Virus record (IMG/VR): IMGVR_UViG_3300002161_000019
Span: 1-34,267 of that record
Reading direction: 5' to 3' (one strand)
DNA: 34,267 nt
Source of the DNA: a virus
Shown here: positions 6,426 to 34,267 of the stretch, one piece after another
How the letters are laid out: every line of letters begins with the position of its first letter
Position numbering within the stretch: the first letter of the stretch is position 1
Made by a program: the position numbers and the translations under genes
The notes under the pieces: model-generated
The model's input: only the letters and a program-made list of their open reading frames with translations
Told to the model about the DNA's origin: nothing
The model's database searches: none

Positions 6426-6976
6426 CAGATGCTCTTTATGACGTAGCCAACAGGTAGTGTGTCAAGCCCCTCTTGCAGGGTGTTGGTCCAGTAGCTATTT
6501 TGCGGTAGCTCTTCCCTCGTGAGGAGCCATTCGGTGGCGAAGTCAGTCTTGTCACCGCGGTGAACGTGCAAGAACCCACCCTCTGCTCTGAATACACGCT
6601 GCGTGATGAAGGAGTAAATGCGCTCCTTGCGCTCGTGCTGATCTTGGTCCTTGGAATGTCGTGGTTCAGCCGTGAAGAATAGAGCGTCCATGTCGTGCTC
6701 ACGCCACACCTTGCGAACTGCGTTTAGCACCACGCCGTAGACCTTTACTGGAACTTCCTCTTGGCCTTCATGTGTTGAGTAGGCATCATCACCCTTCCTG
6801 TCCGTCCTGAAGAACGAGACCTCGTAAGTCCTCAAACGTGGAACGGCTGGTGCAGCGATCTTACTTAGCTGCACAGTAAAGAGTTGGTCACCCCATTTGA
6901 AATTTCCTTGCCGGCCCCAGTCTGTCTTATAGAGAATATCCGGGATCTCACTGTCAAGGATTTCTTGCATCTTCAT
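6425..6976 (-). CDS. Conserved-type phage hypothetical protein, 183 aa
   Basis: It starts MKMQEILDSEIPDILYKT and has a pattern I associate with a widespread uncharacterised phage family: a beta-rich first half, then a segment like VYGVVLNAVRKVWREHDMD followed by LFFTAEPRH and an Arg/Lys-rich helix (ERKERIYSF). No catalytic residues can be assigned. GGAG lies five bases before the ATG, which overlaps the gp62 stop by four bases (ATGA). It belongs to the gp44-gp62 operon. Confidence 0.65.
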   Translation of the reverse strand: MKMQEILDSEIPDILYKTDWGRQGNFKWGDQLFTVQLSKIAAPAVPRLRTYEVSFFRTDRKGDDAYSTHEGQEEVPVKVYGVVLNAVRKVWREHDMDALFFTAEPRHSKDQDQHERKERIYSFITQRVFRAEGGFLHVHRGDKTDFATEWLLTREELPQNSYWTNTLQEGLDTLPVGYVIKSI

Positions 6977-8418: not shown

Positions 8419-9795
8419 TTATCTACCAGAGCGGTAAATTCCCGGCTTGAAGACTCCAGACTTAAAGACGCCTGTCTTTAAGCCTACTTCTTTTGTATCT
8501 TCTTTTGGTTCTACAATTTCTTGTTCGGGAATTCCAAGCGTTGACTTTGTAATCTGCTCACGTGCGGGTGCTTCTACAATTGTTTCAGGAATTGTTTCAG
8601 GAATTGTTTCAGGAATTGTTTCAGGCGGATTTTGATTATCAGTCACTGTTACTGCTAAAAGTTCCTCTATTTCAACTTTTGCTGCAACTTCTTCTTGAAT
8701 TGTTTGAGATATCTCTTTTTGAATTGTTTCAGGAATTGTTTCAGGAATTGTTTCAGGAATTGTTTCAGGAATTGTTTCAGTTATAACTTCCTCAATTTCA
8801 ACTTTTGCTGCAACTTCTTCTTGGATTGTTTTAGTTTGCTTTGCTAGAGTTATAACTTCCTCAGCAATTTGTGGTGCTGTATCTACATCTACCGGGGCAA
8901 CTACAGTTTCTGTTAATATCGCAGGCACAACTGCTGGAACAATTTCGCCTTCAATCTTTGCCTCTTCAACTGCTACTGTGTTTGGAGCAATTACTGCTGA
9001 TACAGTAGGTGCTACCATTTCGCGGCTCATAGTAGGAGCAGCAACTATTTTTTCTATCTCAGGCTCAGAAATTAGTGGAGATGGAGGACTTGGAGGAGGA
9101 GTCTCCAACATCTCCTTGCGTCTTTGGAAAAGCAGGAAGTTTCCAGCAATTATGAGAAAAACTGCAAGCGGGTCGAACACGAAGATAATCATCAAGATTA
9201 CCCACTTCACGGCTTCTTCTATGCTAACATCAAATGCCTTTGAGATGTAGAGAATTGGACCGGCTTTTGCTTCAACAGAAATCTGAGAAATTTGAAGAGT
9301 AGGTAGTTGCTGTGAAATTTCATTCAGTCTTGCAGTGACCAGCCGCTGCTCTTCCTTGAACTGATTCATTAAACGAATCTTTTGGTTTGCGCTGTACCTA
9401 TCGGGTATGGCGGCAATACCATCATCAATCTGTTTCTTACGCGCTTCTAATTTACCTTGCTCATCTTTGATTACCTGTATCTTCAACTGGCCTTCTTGAG
9501 TTCCAACTACTGCTTTTTGAAATTCGGCTGACAAATATCCCGCTGCGCCGGCAGAAGTAATTACCATCGTAATGACAGCAGCAATCAATCCATATGTTCG
9601 CATTAACCTGTTGAGTTTCTGCCAATATCCATACAACAGCGTTATTACAACCAATTTACCAATGTCAAGTACAACGGCAAGTGCAATGATAATTGGGTTG
9701 GCACCAAAAAGAGTGCTCAGTCCAATTACTGAAACAACTGTCCCAATTGCCTCAATAGAAAAAGCAGCGAAGAAGGTCAGCAGAATAAACGGCAT
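8419..9795 (-). CDS. Membrane protein with a repeat-rich cytoplasmic-type tail
   Basis: The 458-aa protein begins with three hydrophobic segments (about 2-26, 33-58, 68-91), followed by a coiled-coil-like region rich in Lys, Gln and Glu (about 95-190) and a fourth membrane segment (about 200-228). The remaining half is low-complexity and acidic, with two runs of the tetrapeptide ETIP and two copies of EEVAAKVEIEE. It ends in a short basic repeat (TGVFKSGVFKPGIYRSGR). The layout suggests an inner-membrane anchor with a long extended arm. I cannot name the family. It follows the gp31-like gene by four bases, so the two are probably co-transcribed. Confidence 0.7.
   Translation of the reverse strand: MPFILLTFFAAFSIEAIGTVVSVIGLSTLFGANPIIIALAVVLDIGKLVVITLLYGYWQKLNRLMRTYGLIAAVITMVITSAGAAGYLSAEFQKAVVGTQEGQLKIQVIKDEQGKLEARKKQIDDGIAAIPDRYSANQKIRLMNQFKEEQRLVTARLNEISQQLPTLQISQISVEAKAGPILYISKAFDVSIEEAVKWVILMIIFVFDPLAVFLIIAGNFLLFQRRKEMLETPPPSPPSPLISEPEIEKIVAAPTMSREMVAPTVSAVIAPNTVAVEEAKIEGEIVPAVVPAILTETVVAPVDVDTAPQIAEEVITLAKQTKTIQEEVAAKVEIEEVITETIPETIPETIPETIPETIQKEISQTIQEEVAAKVEIEELLAVTVTDNQNPPETIPETIPETIPETIVEAPAREQITKSTLGIPEQEIVEPKEDTKEVGLKTGVFKSGVFKPGIYRSGR
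8581..8628. repeat. 12-base tandem repeat, about four units
   Basis: TGTTTCAGGAAT is repeated head to tail, with a degenerate last unit. In the coding direction it spells the tetrapeptide repeat ETIP inside the membrane protein. Because the unit is a multiple of three, copy number can change without breaking the frame. Confidence 0.9.
8725..8780. repeat. 12-base tandem repeat, about five units
   Basis: A second array of TGTTTCAGGAAT in the same gene. Each array is adjacent to a copy of a near-identical 45-base segment (8661-8706 and 8788-8830), so a larger unit seems to have been duplicated. Confidence 0.9.
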
Positions 9796-10438: not shown

Positions 10439-10996
10439 TTAATCGTGGAAAAACTCATCTAAAGGTATATCATAAATGATGGGGTCAACAGAATGCAGGT
10501 TGAGTAGAAAAAGAACATAGGAAGCACAGGAAGAACCTCTTCCAACACCCCAAACTACTCCGCGCTCCTTGAAAACATCTAGAATGTAGATAACTGTCCT
10601 AAAGAAATCAGTCATTCCGCGAGTTTCAATCTCGTGCAGTTCATCTATAACCCGGGTAAATGCTGAGTCCCACTGCTGTTGGGTGTACCGTTGATATAGT
10701 TCTTCTGAGCGTTCATCAAGAACTTTTCCAACAACTTCTGACAGATTGAGGGTCTTATACTTCTCTGGTAAGTTCCAAGAAAAGTTTAGTTTGACAGGCT
10801 CTTCTTCAAAAATACGAATAGTATCTTCTTCTACAACGTTTGAATTAAAAGCCTGGATATCCTCATTGAGGTGGGTGACCCGCATCTGCGTAGGAGAAAC
10901 TCCATGAAGCAACGCATCTGCTACATCCTCAGGACAGATGATGCTTGTGCCGTCATATCTCAGCACCCGACCTTCTAGTTCTACAGAAAGTTGCAT
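10439..10996 (-). CDS. DnaE-like (family C polymerase) N-terminal half, GRGS segment
   Basis: The last 60 residues of this 185-aa protein match the segment of the DNA polymerase III alpha subunit just before its catalytic Asps: ETRGMTDFF, then VVWGVGRGSSCASYVLFLL (compare GxPVGPGRGSAAGSLVAY), VDPIIYDIPLDEFF (compare DPLxYxLLFERF). The family would continue into PDFDVDF; here the gene stops, and that part begins the separate gene at 4232..4816. No PHP domain is present. The ATG directly follows the stop of the previous gene (TAAATG) and has no clear Shine-Dalgarno. Its product most likely pairs with the other half. The biochemical role is unknown. Confidence 0.75.
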   Translation of the reverse strand: MQLSVELEGRVLRYDGTSIICPEDVADALLHGVSPTQMRVTHLNEDIQAFNSNVVEEDTIRIFEEEPVKLNFSWNLPEKYKTLNLSEVVGKVLDERSEELYQRYTQQQWDSAFTRVIDELHEIETRGMTDFFRTVIYILDVFKERGVVWGVGRGSSCASYVLFLLNLHSVDPIIYDIPLDEFFHD

Positions 10997-12453: not shown

Positions 12454-12855
12454 TTAAGATCTTGCTAGATTTACAGGAAATAAAGTAATAGAGCCTTCTG
12501 TGGCTACTCCAAACATTCCTGCTCCACTAGAATTTGTATTTACAGGAAACATACTTATAGTGCCTGGAGAAAACGCAGTAGTACTACTTCCAGAATTAAT
12601 ATTCACTGGGAAGGTTGAAGTAACTTCTTCCTCAGCAGTATTGAAACCAACAGAAATGTTTACTGGGAACTGCGCAATAAGTGCAGTAGATGTTTCGTTA
12701 AAAACTGCTGAAAGATCAACTGGAAAACCATTAATGCCGTTTGCTTTTGCTGTTGTTGGTGTTGCTGAAAGATTTACTGGAAAGAGTGTTTGTTGACCAA
12801 TTAGATCACCGTCTTCATTTCGTGAAGCAATAATTCCAGCAATGGCGCCAAGCAT
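12454..12855 (-). CDS. Tail adhesin cassette gene C2: FPVN-repeat protein
   Basis: The 133-aa protein opens MLGAIAGIIASRNEDGD, almost the same as its paralogue at 13860..14186 (MIGALAGIIASRN). It then carries six copies of an FPVN(L/I)-centred repeat spaced about 18-23 residues, ending LFPVNLARS. A start further upstream exists, but the matching opening and the adjacent stop of the previous gene favour the ATG at 12855. The repeats suggest a beta-solenoid or fibrous element of the tail fibre tip. It is the last gene of the tail block and is followed by a strong terminator. The function is inferred from context. Confidence 0.65.
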   Translation of the reverse strand: MLGAIAGIIASRNEDGDLIGQQTLFPVNLSATPTTAKANGINGFPVDLSAVFNETSTALIAQFPVNISVGFNTAEEEVTSTFPVNINSGSSTTAFSPGTISMFPVNTNSSGAGMFGVATEGSITLFPVNLARS

Positions 12856-12856
12856 T

Positions 12857-13387
12857 TTATGTGTAGTTCCAAGTAGATGGGAACTCAATTCTCAAGTTAA
12901 GAACGCGGTATGGTTCCCCAAGCACGATACTTGTTGACCCCATTTCAAGATCTGAACCTGAACCAATTATCCCAACAGTGCCTATGATTTGATGAATTAT
13001 AAAATTTGGATTATCAAGATAATAAGTTGGTCTAACTGTTAACCAAAACCAAGTTGCCATTCCTGTGGCGGCGGCAGAAACATAGATTGTAGAAATAACT
13101 GCAGGATTTATTGTTGGCTGTGTTGGTGCAAAGTGGGCGCTACGAACTGAAAACTCTACAAGTGTATCAGCGGAACGTGAAGTATAACTTGTAAGAGTTG
13201 AAAGATCGACTGGGACAGTTCCTTTCATCAAAGTTAGACGTGTTCCTGGTAATCCATAACTGTCGTTGCCTGCCATTAATAGACCACTTGTGGCAGCAAC
13301 ATTTGATGTTGAAGCAGTCTCGCTAAATCTGAGAATTCTATTTGGCAGCCCTGCCATAAACCCTGAACTTAAATCAATTGTTGCCAT
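12857..13387 (-). CDS. Tail adhesin cassette gene B2
   Basis: The 176-aa protein starts MATIDLSSGFMAGLPNRILR and is Ser/Thr-rich and beta-rich. It is a paralogue of 14187..14750: both share MATI(D/E), a MKGTVP(V/T)D motif, TATWFW-like or MATWFWLTVRPT segments, and an end reading IIGTVGIIGSGSDLEMG followed by YRVLNLRIEFP. Such beta-rich, repetitive openings are typical of tail-fibre or baseplate-associated structural proteins. AAGGTG precedes the ATG. The role as receptor-binding accessory is inferred from position downstream of the large fibre. Confidence 0.7.
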   Translation of the reverse strand: MATIDLSSGFMAGLPNRILRFSETASTSNVAATSGLLMAGNDSYGLPGTRLTLMKGTVPVDLSTLTSYTSRSADTLVEFSVRSAHFAPTQPTINPAVISTIYVSAAATGMATWFWLTVRPTYYLDNPNFIIHQIIGTVGIIGSGSDLEMGSTSIVLGEPYRVLNLRIEFPSTWNYT

Positions 13388-13396
13388 AATAACACC

Positions 13397-13858
13397 TTAG
13401 AATGTTGCGCCAATGGAGCCATCAAGAATTACTGCTGATGACGCAGTGGAAAGATTAGCATTTGAGAAGCGAATTATTCCAAGTCCAACGCTGTCTGAAC
13501 AAGGTCCTACCAAAAAATTATTCGATGGCAAAGTTGTTGCTGCTACATTAGCAGCACTTACTGCAGTTGCCCAGAGAATACACCAGGTAGCAGTTCCAGT
13601 ATTAACTGGAAAACCCGCTGGAGGAAAAGTAGAAAGTTGCATCAAGATGCCGCTAGAGGGTTGTGACCAGGCGGCGCCAGCATAGTGAATTAAAAATCCA
13701 CTTGTTCCAGAGTTGTATGAAACCCAATTTGAAATAATATCATTTGTTGTGGGTTGAATTCCGGTGTAGATAGAAATTGAACAAGGGTTTGTAAAGTTTG
13801 CCAGCAGCCCACGCCCTATCATCAAATTTCTTACTGACTGTGAAAAAATTAGTGCCAT
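13397..13858 (-). CDS. Tail adhesin cassette gene A2
   Basis: The 153-aa protein starts MALIFSQSVRNLMIGRGLLA and is a paralogue of 14760..15233 (MAILFHPNIRNLMVNRGLLA). Shared elements are a YTG/YSG-TQP motif near 32, a NW(V/T)SYNS segment, an FLIH/CLIH strand and a WCI(L/I)W(A/S)TAV segment. It is beta-rich with no catalytic motif. AGGAG lies six bases before the ATG. It opens the second copy of the cassette. Confidence 0.7.
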   Translation of the reverse strand: MALIFSQSVRNLMIGRGLLANFTNPCSISIYTGIQPTTNDIISNWVSYNSGTSGFLIHYAGAAWSQPSSGILMQLSTFPPAGFPVNTGTATWCILWATAVSAANVAATTLPSNNFLVGPCSDSVGLGIIRFSNANLSTASSAVILDGSIGATF

Positions 13859-13859
13859 T

Positions 13860-14186
13860 TTATGCTCCTGTTACCGTCAGCGGAACGGTATTGATGTTCT
13901 CTGTGCGTAGTGAGTAACTTGAGGTATTAAGTTGAATTCCAACGCTTGTTATTGCTTCTGTAAAAAATGAAATACTATTGCTTGAAAGTTGAATAGTTAC
14001 TGGTGTAATACTCTCTTCATAGAATGAAAGGCTGTTACTGGAAAGTGTTAAAGGAACTGCAGTGATACTATCTTCTCTAAAAGAATTTCCATCACCATAG
14101 AGAAAAAGAGGAACATTAACAGCTATTCCAGAAAATTCAGCTGCAGCATTTCGTGAGGCAATAATTCCGGCTAAAGCACCAATCAT
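13860..14186 (-). CDS. Tail adhesin cassette gene C1: LSSNS-repeat protein
   Basis: The 108-aa protein opens MIGALAGIIASRNAAAEFSG like its paralogue C2. Its second part is built of about four repeats of 19-20 residues, seen as VPLTLSSNSLSF, VTIQLSSNSISF and VGIQLNTSSYSL, each preceded by an (E/T)xIT-type turn. The repeat chemistry differs from C2 (FPVN repeats) although the N-terminus is conserved, suggesting a constant attachment segment and an exchangeable repeat tip. Its ATG directly follows the stop of B1 (TAAATG). Confidence 0.65.
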   Translation of the reverse strand: MIGALAGIIASRNAAAEFSGIAVNVPLFLYGDGNSFREDSITAVPLTLSSNSLSFYEESITPVTIQLSSNSISFFTEAITSVGIQLNTSSYSLRTENINTVPLTVTGA

Positions 14187-14750
14187 TTAGAACGTCCAAG
14201 AAGTAGGAAATTGTAGACGAATATTAGTAATTCTATACGCTGCACCAGATACAATGTTGGTATCTGGAATTTCAAGATCTGCACCTGTTCCTGTCATACC
14301 AATTGTGCCAATAATTTGGTGCATCAGCGCATCAGTTCCACTTACACTTCCACCCGTTGTTGGTCTAACTGTCCACCAAAACCATGTTGCAGTACCAGAG
14401 GCAGATGCAGTTAGATAGTTGGATGTAATTACCACGGGGTTTGTGTTTGTCACTGATGGAGAAAAATTACCTGTAGCGTTAGAAACTCCAGTATATGTAA
14501 TCAAAACATCACTTGCGCGAGCATTAAAATTCGCGAGCGTAGCAAAATCTGTTGGCACAGTACCTTTCATAATATAGAAATTCAAATTTCCTGTATTTGG
14601 ATAATTAGCTGTACCAGGGCTAGCCATCAACCCATTTGTGCTTGCTCTACTTAGAACTGATGATGCAGGTGAATTTAACCAAGTTCCAAGTTGCATCATT
14701 CTACTTACATAACCACTTACAAATGCTGGTGAAATTTCTATAGTAGCCAT
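14187..14750 (-). CDS. Tail adhesin cassette gene B1
   Basis: The 187-aa protein starts MATIEISPAFVSGYVSRMMQ and matches B2 in overall order: MKGTVPTDFATL near 62, a TATWFWWTVRPT segment, HQIIGTIGMTGTGADLEI and an end with YRITNIRLQFPTSW. It is beta-rich and Thr/Ser-rich, probably a structural tail-tip protein. AGGA lies four bases before the ATG. It lies between A1 and C1 in the first copy of the cassette. Confidence 0.7.
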   Translation of the reverse strand: MATIEISPAFVSGYVSRMMQLGTWLNSPASSVLSRASTNGLMASPGTANYPNTGNLNFYIMKGTVPTDFATLANFNARASDVLITYTGVSNATGNFSPSVTNTNPVVITSNYLTASASGTATWFWWTVRPTTGGSVSGTDALMHQIIGTIGMTGTGADLEIPDTNIVSGAAYRITNIRLQFPTSWTF

Positions 14751-14759
14751 ATTATCCTC

Positions 14760-15233
14760 TTAGTTAGAAGACACTGAAATTGTGCCATCAGCAATTGTGA
14801 ATGGTGTTAATGCCACAAACGTAACTGTTGGATTAAACCTCACTATGCCATTACCCGCAAGCGTAGATACTGGACCAATAATAAATGATGTGGAAGGTAT
14901 TGTTGCACCAGCAAGAGCAGTTGGTGTAACTGCGGTTGACCATATAATACACCACTCACCAATTCCTGAATTTATTGCGGCTGTTGAAGCAGGGAAGGTT
15001 GTGATACTACCAAAAGTAGTAGTTCCATCAATTGGGTGCGTCCAGCCAACACCCTGAAAGTGAATTAAACAGGAAGCATTTGAGGAGTTATAACTGGTCC
15101 AGTTTGATGCAATTGTAGCAGCAGATGGTTGTGTTCCGGAATAAACAGTTACTCCTACTGTTGTTGTTAATCCAGCAAGCAAACCACGGTTTACCATCAA
15201 GTTTCTAATATTTGGGTGAAATAGTATAGCCAT
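14760..15233 (-). CDS. Tail adhesin cassette gene A1
   Basis: The 157-aa protein starts MAILFHPNIRNLMVNRGLLA. The frame continues upstream into the end of the large fibre gene, but the ATG at 15233 follows that stop codon by two bases, has GGA eight bases upstream, and gives the same opening as A2. Beta-rich, Thr/Ser-rich sequence with YSGTQPSAATIASNW and EWCIIWSTAV segments shared with A2. It follows the 926-aa fibre directly, which supports a tail-fibre accessory or receptor-binding role. Confidence 0.7.
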   Translation of the reverse strand: MAILFHPNIRNLMVNRGLLAGLTTTVGVTVYSGTQPSAATIASNWTSYNSSNASCLIHFQGVGWTHPIDGTTTFGSITTFPASTAAINSGIGEWCIIWSTAVTPTALAGATIPSTSFIIGPVSTLAGNGIVRFNPTVTFVALTPFTIADGTISVSSN

Positions 15234-15235
15234 TA

Positions 15236-18016
15236 TTATGTTCCAATATTTCCTTCGAGGTCCCAAACATCAGGTGCAACTTTGATTAGTGTTGCTTTTC
15301 CGTGAATGTTGGTAATGCTTAGTGAGTCAGGTGTGTTGATGGTAACGCCAGATCCAGCAACAAATGTTACATCACCCGTATTGTGCTTACCAACAATAAT
15401 AGTACCACCAATTGGCATTGGTGCTGGACTTGTTGGGTTAAAATCATTCTCATAGTACTGCTGTGTTCCAGTCCAGAAACTTTCTGGCTGGATTGTAATC
15501 GTTATTGCAGTTACAGCAGTACATCTGTAGTGTGAGTTGTGGTGTGCTGAAGAACCAAGGTCAAGAGCAGTTGACGTTGTGGTAGTTGTTGTTAGAGGTC
15601 TTGGCTTTGGCTGCTGCGATCCTGCAGGACCCGGTACCCAAGAGGTACCATTCCAAATCAATGCATCACCAACTATAGGTGCAGAAGTAGTTGTATCTAC
15701 ATCAGTCAAATCATCTGCAGACAGAATAATTGGTAGCGATGAAACTGCATCATCAACATATTTCTTATTAACGAGGTCATCATCAAGTAGGACAAGTGCT
15801 TCATAGTTTGTGAGACTTGAAGTAAGAACGCCATCTGATCTTAGAATGATGCTATTGGTAGAATTTTCAAGTGCAAGCCTACCAGCATCAGCAGCAATTC
15901 TTGGGTAGTTTGATGTAGTTACTCCAAACGCTGTTGCCCAAACATAGCCAGTAACATCAATTCCTGATACTACAGGCAGCGTATCAGATGCTTGGAACTT
16001 AGCCAGTAACTCACCATCGACAGATAATTGAACCTGAGCAGGCTGTGCTGGGTCAAACCAAAATCCGCTCTTATCATTTCCAACAAATGAAATGCCAGGC
16101 TGAGGTCCAAATCCATTAAAGAACTTTACCTGTCCTGTGAGTGTTCCACCGGCAAGAGGCAGGTAATCGTGTGAATGGGCTGTATTTGCTTTACCATTAA
16201 TTTCTGTCTGCAGATTGGTAAGAGTTGTCTGCAAATTGTAAATCTCATTTATTCCGTGAGTGTGACCAACATTGCTCTTTCCAGCCAGCGCAGTAACTAA
16301 CCCCATAACCTGATTCATATCATGTGAGTGAATTGAATCTGCTTTTCCAGCGAGTGCTGTATCAAGTCCAGAAATTTGAACCATGCTGTGTGTATGGTTT
16401 ATCTGTGGATATCGACCATCGAAGAAGTTTAAGTCATAACCACTATCTTGAATGCCGCCACCAGAAACAAATGATGCAAAGTTTCCTACAACTGCAGTAA
16501 GTACCTTATCTACCTTAGCCCCTAGAACAGTGCGAAGAGTTGAGCCAGTGCCCACATCTAAAGCGCTTGTTCTATTCACACCATCAAATACTTCGTCAAA
16601 TGTATTGACGTGAATGCGAGCAGCCTTGCTATTCAACTCAGTCTGAAGATCTGTTACCTGTGCAATTGAATGTAGGTGTGATACTGCTGCAAAGTCTGTA
16701 TGTGTATGACCAAGCAGTGAATATAAACTTGAATGGTCATGTGTTAAAGGAGCCTTATCATCAAGCGACGCTTGTAGAAGTGAAACATCTGCAATTGTAT
16801 GGATATGGCCAAGCATTGCCTTTCCTGTTATTGCAATTTCTGCAGCATCTAGACGGCTTTCATGAATTGTCAATTGTCCTGCTTGTGTTGAAGACATAAA
16901 GCCATTTTGGGTTTCCGATGATGCTGGCAGAGATAATGTCCAAACTTTTTCACCTAACCCATTTATAGAAAATGCTGAACTTAGTGGAGCATCTGCTTCA
17001 ACAATAACATCTGATGGTCCAGAAGAATAAACTTGTGGTGTTGTCTCAGCATCTATTTGGAAAACAATTGTTTTTGGCGATTTAATAAATCCAACTCTAT
17101 ACACCATTAGCCCCGTCGGGCGTGTGAGAGTAATTTGACCATTGTTGTCACAGAATACAGGATTTCCAATATGACCAGCCCAGTTCCAAGCGTCATATGA
17201 AATTTCACCACTTTGTGTTACAACACCAACTTGATTTGCTGAGAGTGGCTCTTGAACAATTCCAATTGGTACTCTTTGTGGTGAAAGAGAAGGATTGCTT
17301 GAGGCTAATGAAACAGTATTAGTAGCAGAAAAATATACCAATGACATTGCAGGAATATTTTCTCCTGCTTTGATCGGTATAAATGCATTTGGCAGCACTG
17401 CTAATACGCCTGTTGTGCCAACTGTTGTATTAAATCTCACTGGCGTATTTGACGTAACAAACTCAAGACTTGGCATTCTGAGTGGTGTGCCAAAGATATC
17501 TGTAGAGATATATCCAGCAGATGATGTTACTTGTAGTGCAATAGCATTTTTCCAGGGTTGTCCAGGTAATTCTGCCTGAATAGAGTTTGTGTTTCCATTT
17601 GCCACTTTACCAGCAAATGCCCTAATAACATGTTGCCATTCAGTTCCACTCCAACGCTTCATTTTCATTGAAGTCAAATCAAACCAATGTTGGTCGACTA
17701 CTGGACTTGAAGGTGCTGAAGGATGTGCTACAGGTTCAATGGTAGTAATACCATATGAAACTAAACTAGTAAGTGTATTGATATCCCAATAAAGATAATT
17801 GTCAATACTGCTAACTACTGGGCCCCAGGCAGCAGGAACGTCTTGCGAAAACACAAGAAGATAATTTGATGCACCGTCTGCAATAGTTACTGTTGTAGGA
17901 GTAGTTGATACGTTAAATGCAACATATGATGGTGTTGAAGATGCAATTAAAAATTGTGGTAGACCAAAAGGGTCTTTTTGGCAATCAACAATGCCTTGTC
18001 TGAATGGTAACTTCAT
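15236..18016 (-). CDS. Large tail fibre protein with HxH motifs
   Basis: The 926-aa protein has a beta-rich N-terminal region, then a central stretch (about residues 400-620) with eight HxH motifs (HIH, HDH, HTH, HLH, HTH, HSH, HTH, HSH) spaced by helical segments such as QTELNSKA and GLVTALAGKS, then a PLAGGTLTG motif common in phage fibres, and a Ser/Thr-rich distal part with a PAGSQQPKPRP linker. HxH motifs in the T4 gp37 tip bind iron along the trimer axis, so metal binding is plausible here. It is probably a trimeric fibre. The only purine-rich site upstream, AAGG, is about 12 bases away. The six cassette genes that follow may decorate or extend it. Confidence 0.8.
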   Translation of the reverse strand: MKLPFRQGIVDCQKDPFGLPQFLIASSTPSYVAFNVSTTPTTVTIADGASNYLLVFSQDVPAAWGPVVSSIDNYLYWDINTLTSLVSYGITTIEPVAHPSAPSSPVVDQHWFDLTSMKMKRWSGTEWQHVIRAFAGKVANGNTNSIQAELPGQPWKNAIALQVTSSAGYISTDIFGTPLRMPSLEFVTSNTPVRFNTTVGTTGVLAVLPNAFIPIKAGENIPAMSLVYFSATNTVSLASSNPSLSPQRVPIGIVQEPLSANQVGVVTQSGEISYDAWNWAGHIGNPVFCDNNGQITLTRPTGLMVYRVGFIKSPKTIVFQIDAETTPQVYSSGPSDVIVEADAPLSSAFSINGLGEKVWTLSLPASSETQNGFMSSTQAGQLTIHESRLDAAEIAITGKAMLGHIHTIADVSLLQASLDDKAPLTHDHSSLYSLLGHTHTDFAAVSHLHSIAQVTDLQTELNSKAARIHVNTFDEVFDGVNRTSALDVGTGSTLRTVLGAKVDKVLTAVVGNFASFVSGGGIQDSGYDLNFFDGRYPQINHTHSMVQISGLDTALAGKADSIHSHDMNQVMGLVTALAGKSNVGHTHGINEIYNLQTTLTNLQTEINGKANTAHSHDYLPLAGGTLTGQVKFFNGFGPQPGISFVGNDKSGFWFDPAQPAQVQLSVDGELLAKFQASDTLPVVSGIDVTGYVWATAFGVTTSNYPRIAADAGRLALENSTNSIILRSDGVLTSSLTNYEALVLLDDDLVNKKYVDDAVSSLPIILSADDLTDVDTTTSAPIVGDALIWNGTSWVPGPAGSQQPKPRPLTTTTTTSTALDLGSSAHHNSHYRCTAVTAITITIQPESFWTGTQQYYENDFNPTSPAPMPIGGTIIVGKHNTGDVTFVAGSGVTINTPDSLSITNIHGKATLIKVAPDVWDLEGNIGT

Positions 18017-23949: not shown

Positions 23950-24373
23950 TTTTGATATACTTTTCGGTTAGTTCTGCCAAAGTTAGTCGTGCAAAGTTTC
24001 CACCTGCAAATCGACCACCATACTTCTTCCATTCTTCTATTATAGATTGATATACCTGCTCTGCGGATACAATTTCTTGTGGTTGAAGGTGAATAATTAT
24101 ATCAAGCGTATCATACACTGTAGATGGGAGAGATCTGCCATAGTATGCTAGAAGTTGGTGTTGCTGGTTGCGGTGAAGGATGGCATTTAACTTTTCTTCC
24201 TCTTCTTGTGTACAGATTACATGAGCACGAGCCATCATATTAATAGTGTCACCAGCCATAAAAGCACCAGACAATTGCTCTTCAAGATTTGAGCCGCTGA
24301 TTATACCAATTGACAGGAGTTGGTGCCTTACATGCTGAAGGTCGCCAACGCCTGCTTTTCTCTCAATTCTCAT
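23933..24373 (-). CDS. Hypothetical protein, 146 aa
   Basis: The protein starts MRIERKAGVGDLQHVRHQLL and is predicted helical, ending LAELTEKYIKNANII. No motif is recognised. Its ATG overlaps the stop of the uvsW C-terminal gene (ATGA), and AAGG lies seven bases before it, so it is translated from the same message as that fragment. Confidence 0.6.
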   Translation of the reverse strand: MRIERKAGVGDLQHVRHQLLSIGIISGSNLEEQLSGAFMAGDTINMMARAHVICTQEEEEKLNAILHRNQQHQLLAYYGRSLPSTVYDTLDIIIHLQPQEIVSAEQVYQSIIEEWKKYGGRFAGGNFARLTLAELTEKYIKNANII

Positions 24374-25770
24374 GCTGTTGCCTTAACTACCTTCAGCACC
24401 GGGTATTGGGCTGACTCGTAGTATTTTTTGCGCTCACGATAGTGCTTGCGTGACCACTTTAAACTTGAATGAATATCAACGCAATGCACTCTTTCCTTGT
24501 CATCTGCCTTGCGAAGACCACGACCGATAGATTGAATTGTACGGACAAATGATTTACCTGCATCAATCATCATAAGGTTGAATACACGGTCAATGCTGAT
24601 ACCTGTGCTTGCAATTCCAAATGTTGCAATGACGATTAGATTGTCGGTGTTTTCAAACATGTGGTACCATTCCGCACGGACATCATTCTCAGTGGCTCCA
24701 TACAGAAACACACTATCCTTGATAAGTTTCTGCAGCGCTCTTCCCTGCTTCACTGAATTTACCAGCACAAAGGTATTACCAAATTGATCTGCCTTTGCAA
24801 TGATAAGGTCAGCAATAAAGTCAAGTCTATCAGAATTCCTGCTGAGGAAAGTTTTTTCAGATGAATAATCTGGAAATTCTTCTGTTGCAGTTTCTTGAAT
24901 TTCAATCGGCTCAATTTCAAGTTGAGCAAGATAGCCCATCCTGATGAGGTCAGCGGCAGAAATTTCAAATAAGATTTCACCGATTGCACCCCGTAGTGAC
25001 ATCTGGTCAATCTTTGGCTTTGGGAAGGTGCCGGTAAATCCAAAGCGGTATGCACAGTTTTTACCGTGCTTGTTTATCAACTCTCCAATAGTTTTTGCCG
25101 AGGCACCGTGGGCTTCATCCACAATAATGCAGTGAAAGTCCTCTACAACAACTGGGTTATTCTGCAGTGCCTGCCAAGTTGCTACTACGGTATAGTGGTG
25201 AATGTCCTTCTTGTTTCCAGAATAAACACCAACATCTAGATTTCCAAGCGTCATGGTGCTAGCAGTCTGCTCAACTAGGTCGGATGAAGGCACAATAACC
25301 AAGGTGCGAAGTTCTTGCTTTGCAAGAATGTCAGCCACACCGGCAATCATCCACGTGTTATGATGAAGAAGCCCATTTGCATCGTAATATGAATGATGAT
25401 TGGCATAAATTGAAATATCGTAAAATTCATCTTCACCATCTGGAATAATATCAACTATCTTTGTTAATCCTGTTTTTGTAACAATTTCATCATTGACATT
25501 CAATGATGATGCCTTTATTACGCCATTTTTATTAAACACCAAATGACCAGCAGCACACCTCAACTTGCAATTTTCTGTGTGTAGAATAAGTGCTTTGTCA
25601 GTTTTTTTAATAGCAGCAACTGCTAATTCCCAGCCGGTGGGTGTTTCAAATTTAATTTGAAGATCAGAAATATCTACAGGAATATTGACTTCAAATCTGC
25701 GCCCCGTCGTTTCTCCAATGGCGTTGAAGAGTTTCGCAAATGTCGTCAAATAATTTGTGTCTCGGGTCAT
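24370..25770 (-). CDS. uvsW: UvsW helicase C-terminal part fused to a C-intein (fractured gene)
   Basis: The 466-aa product begins with a C-intein (about residues 1-138), then continues at T139 as helicase: TWMIAGVADIL after the P-loop, DEAH box IIVDEAHGA near 217, motif III GFTGTFPK and motif VI QSIGRGLRK. The C-intein shows a block B-like CAAGH, an ASSLNVNDEIV segment, block F FYDISIYANHHSYYDANG and block G HHN followed by Thr. Two in-frame stop codons (TAATAA) directly precede the ATG, so this is a true gene start and not a frameshift continuation. It overlaps the endonuclease gene by 80 bases. UvsW unwinds branched DNA and R-loops in recombination. Trans-splicing with 26583..27095 would give about 470 residues, close to T4 UvsW. 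Confidence 0.92.
   Translation of the reverse strand: MTRDTNYLTTFAKLFNAIGETTGRRFEVNIPVDISDLQIKFETPTGWELAVAAIKKTDKALILHTENCKLRCAAGHLVFNKNGVIKASSLNVNDEIVTKTGLTKIVDIIPDGEDEFYDISIYANHHSYYDANGLLHHNTWMIAGVADILAKQELRTLVIVPSSDLVEQTASTMTLGNLDVGVYSGNKKDIHHYTVVATWQALQNNPVVVEDFHCIIVDEAHGASAKTIGELINKHGKNCAYRFGFTGTFPKPKIDQMSLRGAIGEILFEISAADLIRMGYLAQLEIEPIEIQETATEEFPDYSSEKTFLSRNSDRLDFIADLIIAKADQFGNTFVLVNSVKQGRALQKLIKDSVFLYGATENDVRAEWYHMFENTDNLIVIATFGIASTGISIDRVFNLMMIDAGKSFVRTIQSIGRGLRKADDKERVHCVDIHSSLKWSRKHYRERKKYYESAQYPVLKVVKATA
25357..25770 (-). other. C-intein (split intein C-terminal fragment)
   Basis: Residues 1-138 of the C-terminal uvsW gene. It keeps block B, normally in the N-terminal half of inteins, as well as blocks F and G, ending His-Asn before the +1 Thr. 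The split therefore lies just after block A. The first 25-30 residues may not be part of the fold. Confidence 0.88.
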
Positions 25771-26611
25771 TTATTATCCATTCTGAATACAAACTTTCTA
25801 GGTTTTTACCGTCAATTGCGCATATACATTTCTTTGCCAAATTTTCTGATTTAGATAACCATTTTAAATTTCGTGGAAATGCAATAAACTTTATATTAAC
25901 ACGATTTAAAAACCCCGCGCTGATAGAATATTGATGATCTAGATGTCTTATTCCATTCTTACTTTCACTACTTTGATTTATTTGGTCTTCAAACATACGT
26001 GCTGAAATTTTTGTTAAAATTCCAACATAATGCTTGTATTGTATCTTACGATCGCGCTCCTTGATAAGTTCTTGTGGGATAGATGAAGTTTTTTGTAGTT
26101 CTTTTCTTGAGGAAACTGTTTCAGCCCATTTTTTGTTTCTTATTAACCATAATTTTATGCCTTCTTCTAATCCATTTCTCTCAACAAATTTTTCAATTCT
26201 TCCTGTTGATTGTCTCTGTTTTTGAAGAATTTTTGCTTTCTCAAAATCATTATCGGTTTTCTTAAGAAAATATTTTATGCCGGTGGTGTTTTTAGAAATA
26301 CTAGACTTTTGAAAAAGTGAATTACCTAACGCTTCTCCGTGTCTAGAAATTTTTGCTTTTAGCGAAGAAGTATCACAATTTTTAGGTTTCCATTTTTTTA
26401 TTTTATTCTGAACGTGCTCTGAATAAAGTTTAGTAGCGCGATCTTTAGTAAAACCAGAACAAAATCTATTCAAATCTATTGATGTTTTACTGCTTGATTT
26501 ACAGTTACACAAAACAACTTCTGTTAATATTTTACTCCTAGCGCGTTTAAATTCAGAACCGCAATGCAAGCAGCGGGGTGTATTAAGTACGTGACCTTTC
26601 CAAGTTTTCAA
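25691..26611 (-). CDS. Free-standing HNH-type homing endonuclease between the intein halves
   Basis: The 306-aa basic protein has a Cys pair motif near its N-terminus (C14, C17, C35, C37), which may bind zinc. A C-terminal HNH-like core is also present: RHLDHQYSISAGF (H223, D225, H226), then PRNLKWLSKSENLAKK (N248, N257, K260), like DHxxxIxxGF...NLxxLSxxEN. Such enzymes cut intein-free alleles and spread the element by repair. It is in a different frame from both uvsW pieces. The start is a TTG with AGGAG six bases upstream, and TATAAATA lies about 30 bases before it. It overlaps the N-part by 29 bases and the C-part by 80. The family seen here is HNH rather than Vsr-like. Confidence 0.82.
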   Translation of the reverse strand: MKTWKGHVLNTPRCLHCGSEFKRARSKILTEVVLCNCKSSSKTSIDLNRFCSGFTKDRATKLYSEHVQNKIKKWKPKNCDTSSLKAKISRHGEALGNSLFQKSSISKNTTGIKYFLKKTDNDFEKAKILQKQRQSTGRIEKFVERNGLEEGIKLWLIRNKKWAETVSSRKELQKTSSIPQELIKERDRKIQYKHYVGILTKISARMFEDQINQSSESKNGIRHLDHQYSISAGFLNRVNIKFIAFPRNLKWLSKSENLAKKCICAIDGKNLESLYSEWIINDPRHKLFDDICETLQRHWRNDGAQI

Positions 26612-27095
26612 AATATTCTCCTATAATTCCACCTACACGTATATTTATAGGAGTATTTCCATCAATGCATTTCCCACTACCAGTGGCTGCCAGAATGAAG
26701 CCAGAAGTTGCTTCAAGCGCAGCATTCACAGCATCAACTTGGTATGGGCGGAGAACAACACCTAGTTTGTGTTCAGGCTTGTCTTTAAACCAATTGGCGT
26801 GAATACGAGTTTGTACAATCGGCTGGGCTTTCCTATTATCAACAATTTCTAAGTCATATCCCCATTTATCAAGATACGGAGTCACTTCGTCCAATAGCCG
26901 AAAATAGATTTTGCCAGCCTTATCAAAAAAATGTACTTTACCATCCCAACGACCGAGCCGGTACAAGGGCATAAAATATGCTCCTTCCACCATTACTGCA
27001 AATTTTTCCTCCAGAACCTTATGATCAGCCGGTTCTAGCCCAGAAATCCTGCAAAACACCTCATCATCTACGGTTATGAAAACTTTTTTACTCAT
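26583..27095 (-). CDS. uvsW: UvsW helicase N-terminal part fused to an N-intein (fractured gene)
   Basis: The 170-aa product starts MSKKVFITVDDEVFCRISGL, the N-terminal domain of T4-like UvsW, with GRWDGKVHFFD near 48-58 and a RPYQVDAV Q-motif near 116. Residues 131-142 end in AATGSGK, the Walker A motif cut after the lysine. Residue 143 is Cys, the first residue of the N-intein (CIDGNTPINIRVGG), which runs 28 residues to the stop. The next residue after splicing is the Thr of the C-terminal gene, restoring GSGKT. The ATG overlaps the previous stop (ATGA). Without the other piece it lacks motifs II-VI and cannot be an active helicase. Confidence 0.92.
   Translation of the reverse strand: MSKKVFITVDDEVFCRISGLEPADHKVLEEKFAVMVEGAYFMPLYRLGRWDGKVHFFDKAGKIYFRLLDEVTPYLDKWGYDLEIVDNRKAQPIVQTRIHANWFKDKPEHKLGVVLRPYQVDAVNAALEATSGFILAATGSGKCIDGNTPINIRVGGIIGEYFENLERSRT
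26586..26669 (-). other. N-intein (28 residues at most)
   Basis: Only intein block A is present: Cys1, then IDGNTPINIR, then GEYFENLERSRT and a stop. This is far shorter than the roughly 100-residue N-inteins of DnaE-type split inteins. It resembles the atypically split inteins with very short N-fragments such as AceL-TerL. The sequence also holds the late promoter and ribosome binding site of the endonuclease gene. Confidence 0.88.
26642..26649 (-). promoter_or_regulatory. T4-type late promoter for the homing endonuclease
   Basis: An exact TATAAATA lies inside the N-intein coding sequence, about 31 bases upstream of the endonuclease TTG. T4 intron endonuclease genes likewise carry embedded late promoters, so separate late expression is likely. 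Confidence 0.65.
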
Positions 27096-32800: not shown

Positions 32801-34267
32801 TTAAGCAGGAGTAAAGTTGCTGGTGTAAAGGGCTTCAGTTGTTACCTTTAGACCTTGGAGATAACCGTTGAAGTAATCTCCTGCGAGACCTGCATACGTA
32901 TTCCAACCAACGCCCATTTCTTGATTGCCTACAGGGAAAAGGTTAGAGGTCGTTGTTCCTACAGATACACCGTCCTGGTACATCGTAATCGTTGAACCAG
33001 ACTTAACGATTGCTATATGGTACCAGGTGTCAATTGACAGTGAAGGTCCTGTTATTCTGTTTGCGCCATTACCAGAGACAGTGGTTGAGTACAGTCTAAA
33101 TGTGGATAGTCCTACATACACGTTCCACCTGTAGTTTGTCCCAGTTCCAAACTGGAAAATGTGTGGGGTGTTTGCAAGAGAGTTAAAGCGTACCCAGCAC
33201 TCTACTGTAAAATCACCACTATACAGGTCTAAGAACCTAGACGATGGAACAGTTAGGTAATCTCCATTTCCGTCAAATGCAACCGTTGTATTTCCACCAC
33301 GGGTTTGAACGTTGCTTACCCGTGCATCTCCAAAGGCGGCAATGTTGTTCTTTGTCGTGGAGTCAAACAGACCAGCGTGTCTAAAGTCAAGCGCCAAACT
33401 TGTTGCTGGAGTTATATCAAGAGGTGCTGATGCAGGTCTGAAGTTTCCTTCGTATAGACCAGCGCCACGAATAACTCTAACTGAAGATATGCGACCAGAA
33501 GAAGGGCTTGCTACTGCAACCCCAGCACCTAGTGTCACTGATGTAGCCGACGTGCTAAGTGCCGCACTGCTAACAATAGTTGTGGCTAAAACACCATTTA
33601 AGAACAACCTAATAGAACCACGAACCCGACAGGCTGTTACGTGATGCCAAACATTTGCTCTTGGTGTGGAAGTTATTACTGTGTTATTTGAGATATCCCA
33701 GGATGTACCGTTTGATGAGGAATAAAATGCAAGTCCGCCCGTACTATTAACATAAAATAGCCATCCAGGATAGTTCGTGCCATTCCACCCGCATCCCATA
33801 ACTGCGGTTGAGTTGGTAATTGTTGCAGGTCCAGGTCTCCACCAGAATTCAATGGTGAAGTCCTCACTTGAGGTAGGAACAAATGCTGTAGAGCCAGTGA
33901 TTGCAAGGCTATCACCAGTTCCATCAAAATATGCATTTCCAGCAGACATCATATTTGAATAATTTGACGCTGTGGTGCTTGACGAGGTCTTTGTGAATGG
34001 CGTATTAGGGCGAACACGAGCAGAGTTGAAGAGCCTGATGTAGTGGTTGTTGCGGCTCTCATCAATAACATTTGAAGAACGAGCAGTTAGCAGACTGAGG
34101 TTCTTTGAGTATTGGCTAGCCTGTAGCGGTGAGGAACTTGGAGTAAATGCACCGGTATATGCAACCACTCCTTTTAGAATTCTTATATTTGAAACATGGC
34201 CCTTATAATAAGCAGCACCTGTAGCACCAATTGTTCCACCAGAGTTGTAGTAGTTGCCTACAGTGGT
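32801..34267 (-). CDS. LamG-domain tail or adhesin protein (5' end beyond window)
   Basis: The reading frame is open from the right edge; the visible 488 residues contain two complete LamG/concanavalin-type jelly-roll modules and the end of a third. Landmarks are AYFDGTGDSLAI, FTIEFWWRPG, WHHVTACRVRGSIRLFLNG and later FDGNGDYLTV, FTVECWVRF, WYHIAIVKSGSTITMYQDG, each module ending in a short ALYTSNFTP-type motif (GAFTPSSSPL, GNFRPASAPL, SNFTPA). Such modules bind carbohydrates or decorate capsids and tails. An in-frame GTG at 34168 is not the true start because it lies within a module. Confidence 0.85.
   Translation of the reverse strand, partial: TTVGNYYNSGGTIGATGAAYYKGHVSNIRILKGVVAYTGAFTPSSSPLQASQYSKNLSLLTARSSNVIDESRNNHYIRLFNSARVRPNTPFTKTSSSTTASNYSNMMSAGNAYFDGTGDSLAITGSTAFVPTSSEDFTIEFWWRPGPATITNSTAVMGCGWNGTNYPGWLFYVNSTGGLAFYSSSNGTSWDISNNTVITSTPRANVWHHVTACRVRGSIRLFLNGVLATTIVSSAALSTSATSVTLGAGVAVASPSSGRISSVRVIRGAGLYEGNFRPASAPLDITPATSLALDFRHAGLFDSTTKNNIAAFGDARVSNVQTRGGNTTVAFDGNGDYLTVPSSRFLDLYSGDFTVECWVRFNSLANTPHIFQFGTGTNYRWNVYVGLSTFRLYSTTVSGNGANRITGPSLSIDTWYHIAIVKSGSTITMYQDGVSVGTTTSNLFPVGNQEMGVGWNTYAGLAGDYFNGYLQGLKVTTEALYTSNFTPA

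Follow-up and report, generated by a model that had tools for sequence, protein, structure and literature searches.

Directly behind a tail-fibre gene, the uncultivated virus record IMGVR_UViG_3300002161_000019 (here called the window: the complete record, G000 in our sample, of 34,267 bases, which is possibly a partial genome) carries two successive sets of three small genes, termed A-B-C and A'-B'-C'. The fold of a B model, profile searches and the gene order behind the fibre make it highly probable that A and B are garland-type proteins, distant relatives of those that form fibre-tip garlands in the Agrobacterium phages Milano and 7-7-1. The two sets are homologous gene for gene, but a tree of the concatenated A and B proteins rejects them as sister duplicates. 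Their C proteins are built of one family of 19-residue repeats, which recurs beside A-B pairs in relatives, in several of them joined to exchanged adhesin-type domains.

The fibre gene, which bears PTR repeats, is followed by six packed genes in the order A-B-C-A'-B'-C' (12454-15233, minus strand), with gaps of 0-9 nt throughout the run from the fibre to C' and an A-to-B spacing of 9 nt in both sets alike. A sequence-only reading had described these as two consecutive copies of a tail cassette, and both its coordinates and its gene order proved exact. Pairwise alignment revealed significant similarity in every pair, with global identities of 61/153 aligned residues for A/A' (40%), 73/175 for B/B' (42%) and 33/104 for C/C', the last being weaker than the other two. 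Local scores lay 37.8, 46.9 and 8.9 standard deviations above shuffled sequences for A/A', B/B' and C/C', respectively, and no shuffle reached the score of its pair (0/500 for each).

Pfam searches with A to C' returned nothing above the cut-off. When the model of B (predicted local distance difference test, pLDDT, 78; predicted template modelling score, pTM, 0.78) was compared with the PDB using Foldseek, a single match fell under 0.001, namely 9rkv_A (E 1.4e-5). Superposition of the two gave a VIA Z of 10.3 and a root-mean-square deviation of 3.1 over 130 residues, the next row standing at Z 5.7. Entry 9rkv, from Agrobacterium phage 7-7-1, bears the title 'tail fibers', and over all 141 residues its chain A corresponds to gp103; from the entry title, the protein size and the place beside the fibre, we equate gp103 with the garland protein named gp014 in the 7-7-1 paper.

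Profile searches pointed in the same direction. The B profile, run against all PDB chains, matched 44nx_B (a 'structural protein' also matched by 7-7-1 gp105; E 7e-6), while the A profile matched 9rkv_A at E 0.0055. When whole phage genomes were searched (the E-values that follow are genome-wide and do not come from a seven-sequence set), the B profile found only gp105 in 7-7-1 (E 6.6e-6) and only gp127 (1.7e-5) and gp125 in Milano; the A profile found only gp103 in 7-7-1, weakly (E 0.0103). All of these hits fall in garland genes or in genes beside them. Three B-like places, some of them weak, were also present in each of the Erwinia phages Yoloswag and Alexandra. The A and B profiles are themselves related (hhalign E 4.8e-5, probability 68%), a kinship based on hhalign alone, as iterated hidden Markov model (HMM) searches merged the A and B models and served gene finding only.

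In Milano, gp125 and gp127 are described as homo- or heterodimers that encircle the distal tips of tailspikes and fibres as a garland; which component provides the glue or string is left unclear there, with gp126 as a possible candidate, and the garland fold is likened to the dimers of T4 gp8 and A511 gp105, the latter threaded by an extended chain (PMC10811340). The window shares with Milano and 7-7-1 the garland fold, the profile similarity, a contractile-tail background and two small paralogues directly behind a fibre or tailspike gene. The order in 7-7-1 is fibre gp102, gp103, gp104, gp105, and Milano gp124 to gp127 are arranged alike (fibre-garland-spacer-garland). In the window, in contrast, A and B are adjacent and C follows them, whereas Milano and 7-7-1 have the spacer gp126 or gp104 between their garland genes. 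The proteins also differ in size (about 140 amino acids in Milano and 7-7-1; 153-187 for the A and B types here), in the multiplication of sets to two or three, and in the propeller inserted into A and the PKD fusion of B seen in relatives. The T4 gp8 and A511 gp105 connectors (BW3TFN) are beads on a string but are located near the fibre base, unlike garlands, and the match of the B model to the T4 baseplate chain 5hx2_C (Z 4.5) was weak and below the level that would indicate kinship.

Relatives and ancestry of the two sets

Scans of viral contigs yielded 14 loci with the B query and two with the A query, and a scan with the B-family alignment yielded 38, several contigs being shared with the single-query scans. 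We examined 25 records whole (1,688,732 bases), the other loci of the 38-locus scan lying outside this sample. A tblastn search of 50,697 phage records with A, B and B' gave no match, and no match was confirmed in a scan of genome contigs with B. B was present in all 25 records and A in 21, and B lay directly downstream of A on the same strand in 25 of 26 A places, the sole exception being G010, with about 1.4 kb between the two genes (in G021 and G024 the A profile fell on a B place, and these hits are excluded from the count). More than one A was found in four of the 21 A-bearing records, two in the window and three each in G001, G005 and G006. There are three A-B pairs in each of G001 and G005, against one in most other relatives; L003 and L002 carry one set each.

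A third A-B-C set is present in L024 (record G006), which is syntenic with the window. The ribonucleotide reductase small subunit is 81% identical between the two, a membrane protein 64%, and the fibre 53% in its N-part and 62% in its C-part; a deaminase and small genes lie downstream of the three sets as in the window. The last 110 or so residues of the fibre are kept upstream of A more widely, at 62% identity in L024, 55% in L003 and 48% in L002. Whole A-B-C sets multiplied in association with a tail fibre are thus seen both in the window and in L024.

Three side observations concern these arrays. At L005 1627-2592, a second, frame-broken copy that begins with identical residues stands behind a shortened B, apparently a fresh and decaying duplication of B inside the array. 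Proteins at L001 8668-9510 and at L005 2821-3477 and 4469-5485, which by eye resemble GIY-YIG homing endonucleases, stand among A-B pairs and could move sets. Between A and B of L015, a 130-residue open reading frame (ORF; 6491-6883) is reminiscent, by eye, of a SET domain.

The ancestry of the sets was analysed in a tree of concatenated A and B (20 sets, 351 columns). The second set of the window and the middle set of L024 (its set 2) were recovered as sisters with support of 99/97, and the two share 61% identity in A' and 69% in B', against 40% and 42% with the first set of the window. Forcing the two window sets to be sisters cost 71 log units and was rejected (P value of the approximately unbiased test, p-AU, 5.9e-8). 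The 'tandem duplication' of the sequence-only reading, taken as two sister copies, is thereby rejected under the model used: since set 2 is sister to set 2 of L024, the multiplicity is no local doubling of one set within this lineage. Other groupings were tested in the same way, with p-AU of 0.465 for a clade of window set 1 with the first set of L001 and the second of L005, 0.056 for the three sets of L024 as one clade and 0.030 for the two sets of L001 as one clade. Single-gene trees were weakly supported, inner branches falling below 80 in 12/19 cases for A and 9/18 for B. Two histories are possible on these data: an ancient duplication that predates this phage lineage and was followed by losses, or the import of a second set.

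Repeats and exchanged domains of the C proteins

C and C' begin with 13 or so residues that had been called nearly identical, and 11 of the first 13 positions do agree; by eye this N-terminus is conserved in eight C proteins. A switch between the two proteins from an LSSNS-type to an FPVN-type repeat, also proposed from the sequence, did not hold up. Beyond the N-terminus the period is 19 residues in both C and C'. In an ungapped alignment of the two that starts at the N-terminus, the score of residues 14-101 was 6, against -57 +/- 19 for shuffles, a score matched by 4/5000 of them; the four best shifts were -19, -17, +19 and 0. This pairs VPLF and VPLT of C with FPVN and FPVD of C', and LSSNS of C with the LSAVF found after FPVD in C'. 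LSSNS and FPVN are thus parts of one 19-residue unit in the same phase, so that speaking of exchanged repeat types compares different parts of the unit, and such an exchange is rejected on the shared period and phase. On the suggestion that the C proteins may be beta-solenoids, the AlphaFold2 model of C' carries little weight: it was poor (mean pLDDT 44.8), with about two strands per 19 residues, and the C profile found no relative among PDB sequences (best E 0.51).

The C and C' proteins of the window consist of repeats without further domains, whereas several relatives extend them. The middle C of L024 continues into a propeller, that of L002 into a Laminin_G_3 lectin domain (E 1e-16), and a gene of L006 into Gly_rich_2 (E 6.5e-14). 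The propeller of the L024 protein is related to one that is inserted into the A proteins of two relatives, L001 and L005 (z 24 and 31). Such propeller-like inserts, of about 290 residues and placed near residue 58 of the host domain, were found in A proteins at L001 6556-7929, L005 247-1626 and L015 6874-8400, and in L015 PKD domains precede B in a fusion protein. Modular phage adhesins bear tips of the Laminin_G_3, BNR-type propeller and Gly_rich_2 kinds, which in the relatives occur attached to C-type repeats.

A C profile was built from eight C proteins and run over the 25 records (E <= 0.1), where it matched 15 proteins in 11 records, eight of the 15 being those that built it. All seven remaining matches in this 1.69 Mb directly adjoin A or B, although that in G008 was made only through the first 16 profile positions and that in G005 at E 0.013. 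These independent matches include proteins of 1,284 and 1,679 residues (the latter in G001) with Laminin_G_3 domains; the repeat stretch of the 1,679-residue protein is weakly periodic (30/500 shuffles reach its score). In the 1,097-residue protein of G005 the repeats form the N-terminus, before four Laminin_G_3 stretches, an order that fits a docking role. Judged from sequence, the repeat is the shared element beside A-B, and the distal domains are what relatives exchange. The idea of a fixed attachment segment with a variable tip is therefore retained in part, as the C N-terminus is conserved and distal domains (propeller, lectin, Gly_rich_2) are swappable among relatives, but the repeats themselves resemble a docking element more than a tip.

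Layout of the window

Coordinates of the fibre gene and the two sets are collected in Table 1. Homology with C led us to place the start of C' at the ATG at 12855 and not at the TTG at 12888.

Table 1. The tail-fibre gene and the two A-B-C sets of the window
Feature	Description	Position	Strand	Basis
Tail fibre	926 aa, PTR phage tail repeats	15236..18016	-	Pfam PTR E 1.1e-24
A	157 aa, probable garland-type protein, first of the A-B pair	14760..15233	-	A profile matches 9rkv_A / phage 7-7-1 gp103
B	187 aa, probable garland-type protein encoded second in the pair, distantly paralogous to A	14187..14750	-	model and hhalign
C	108 aa, conserved 13-residue N-terminus, then four to five 19-residue repeats	13860..14186	-	
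A'	153 aa, 40% identity to A, 61% to L024_A2	13397..13858	-	
B'	176 aa, 42% identity to B, 69% to L024_B2	12857..13387	-	
C'	133 aa, C-like N-terminus, six FPV-type repeats of 19-23 residues	12454..12855	-	
N-terminus of C'	codons for the conserved 13 residues	12817..12855	-	

Elsewhere, a baseplate-wedge match occupies 32801-34267, and UvsX, UvsY and a single-strand-binding protein (SSB) are also encoded; all four are likewise present in T4-like contractile phages. A DNA helicase is apparently split on the minus strand (24370-27095), its parts at 26583-27095 and 24370-25770 matching positions 90-217 and 304-613 of phrog_16, with a 306-residue ORF (25691-26611) between them that has no PHROG or Pfam match. 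A 185-residue DNA-polymerase-like protein (10439-10996, minus strand) matches phrog_11127, which has 171 positions in all; it is kept in L024 (13997-14581, 54%) and looks like a stable stand-alone fragment. A 458-residue protein (8419-9795, minus strand) combines a hydrophobic N-terminal part with tandem ETIP-type repeats and is without a PHROG match, its L024 counterpart being 54% identical.

A candidate garland and its alternatives

In the model that we favour, A and B, which are distantly related, would both be building blocks of a network of the garland type round the distal fibre ends of this uncultivated virus. They would most likely be strung along these ends as A:B dimers, the simplest assumption because A and B are nearly always encoded as a pair. 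C, a small protein, would have an accessory role and attach to the A:B beads through its 19-residue FP repeats, perhaps also through the hydrophobic 13-mer at its N-terminus. In relatives such repeats carry lectin, propeller or glycine-rich domains, which would touch the host. Two sets of old separate descent may then give two kinds of bead, or two kinds of docked tip, on one fibre system. In this full form, with A and B as a garland on the fibre ends and the C repeats docking adhesin domains, we hold the model with moderate confidence.

Several points weigh against it. The A profile has no match in the Milano genome, the sequence evidence linking A to 9rkv_A is weak when taken alone, and the fold evidence comes from B only. 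The garlands of 7-7-1 are described as homodimers (PMC12796354), so that an A:B heterodimer is not required. The spacers gp104 and gp126 gave no match with the profile of A or with that of B. In G001 and G010 the repeats lie C-terminal of other domains, which is not what pure docking predicts, and C is not obligatory, since 14 of the 25 records have no C-profile match at E <= 0.1. Scans of viral contigs for C-type proteins returned only known contigs, and the association of the repeats with A-B has no A-B-free control.

Of the alternatives, one keeps A and B as garland-type proteins but makes the C repeats a receptor-contacting tip, perhaps beta-structured, anchored by the 13-residue N-terminus. 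The conservation of that N-terminus, the differing repeat sequences of the two sets and the strands in the weak C' model would suit such a tip; it is the repeats, however, and not the N-terminus, that recur in large multi-domain adhesins beside A-B, and in G005 they precede the lectin domains. We regard this arrangement of C as conceivable but doubtful. That A and B decorate the head or neck rather than the fibre end is improbable. The best PHROG for B is indeed a head and packaging family (phrog_3758; E 2.2e-6 for B and 1.4e-7 for B'), and the B model reaches Z 5.7 with the neck/connector chains 9c39_K and 9mt4_K, yet a Z under 8 can reflect a common arrangement, 9rkv_A scores far higher, and the genes stand directly behind the PTR-repeat fibre gene and, in relatives, beside lectin-type adhesins.

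A recent tandem duplication, with local copying of a single set and subsequent divergence (in C through turnover of the repeats), would account for the adjacency of the sets, their equal order and A-B spacing and the homology of all pairs, and the apparently fresh, decaying extra B of G005 lends it a parallel. The rejection of sisterhood in the concatenated tree and the far closer identity of set 2 to the middle set of L024 than to set 1 leave it very little room.

Returning to the garland with docked C proteins, we also considered, as a possibility that we think rather unlikely, that the 19-residue FP repeat is itself the 'string' of the garland, each repeat threading or clipping one A:B bead. 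If so, the number of repeats in C would set the count of beads joined, lectins and propeller proteins that gain repeats would plug into the garland, and two or three A-B-C sets of differing descent would work side by side on one tail as docking systems, each specific to its own partners.

Garlands at phage fibre tips were recently described in two related Agrobacterium phages, and the agent that holds the beads was left open by the Milano authors. In the literature that we searched, no paper on multiplied garland sets or on the FP repeat was found. The window and its relatives would extend garland-type gene pairs to other, uncultivated phages, in which entire sets are multiplied and have long descended separately, the probable bead proteins can themselves take up domain insertions, and a short repeat recurs in proteins encoded next to them. 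Together, the locus and its relatives may thus help to map the sites at which host-contact parts are exchanged.

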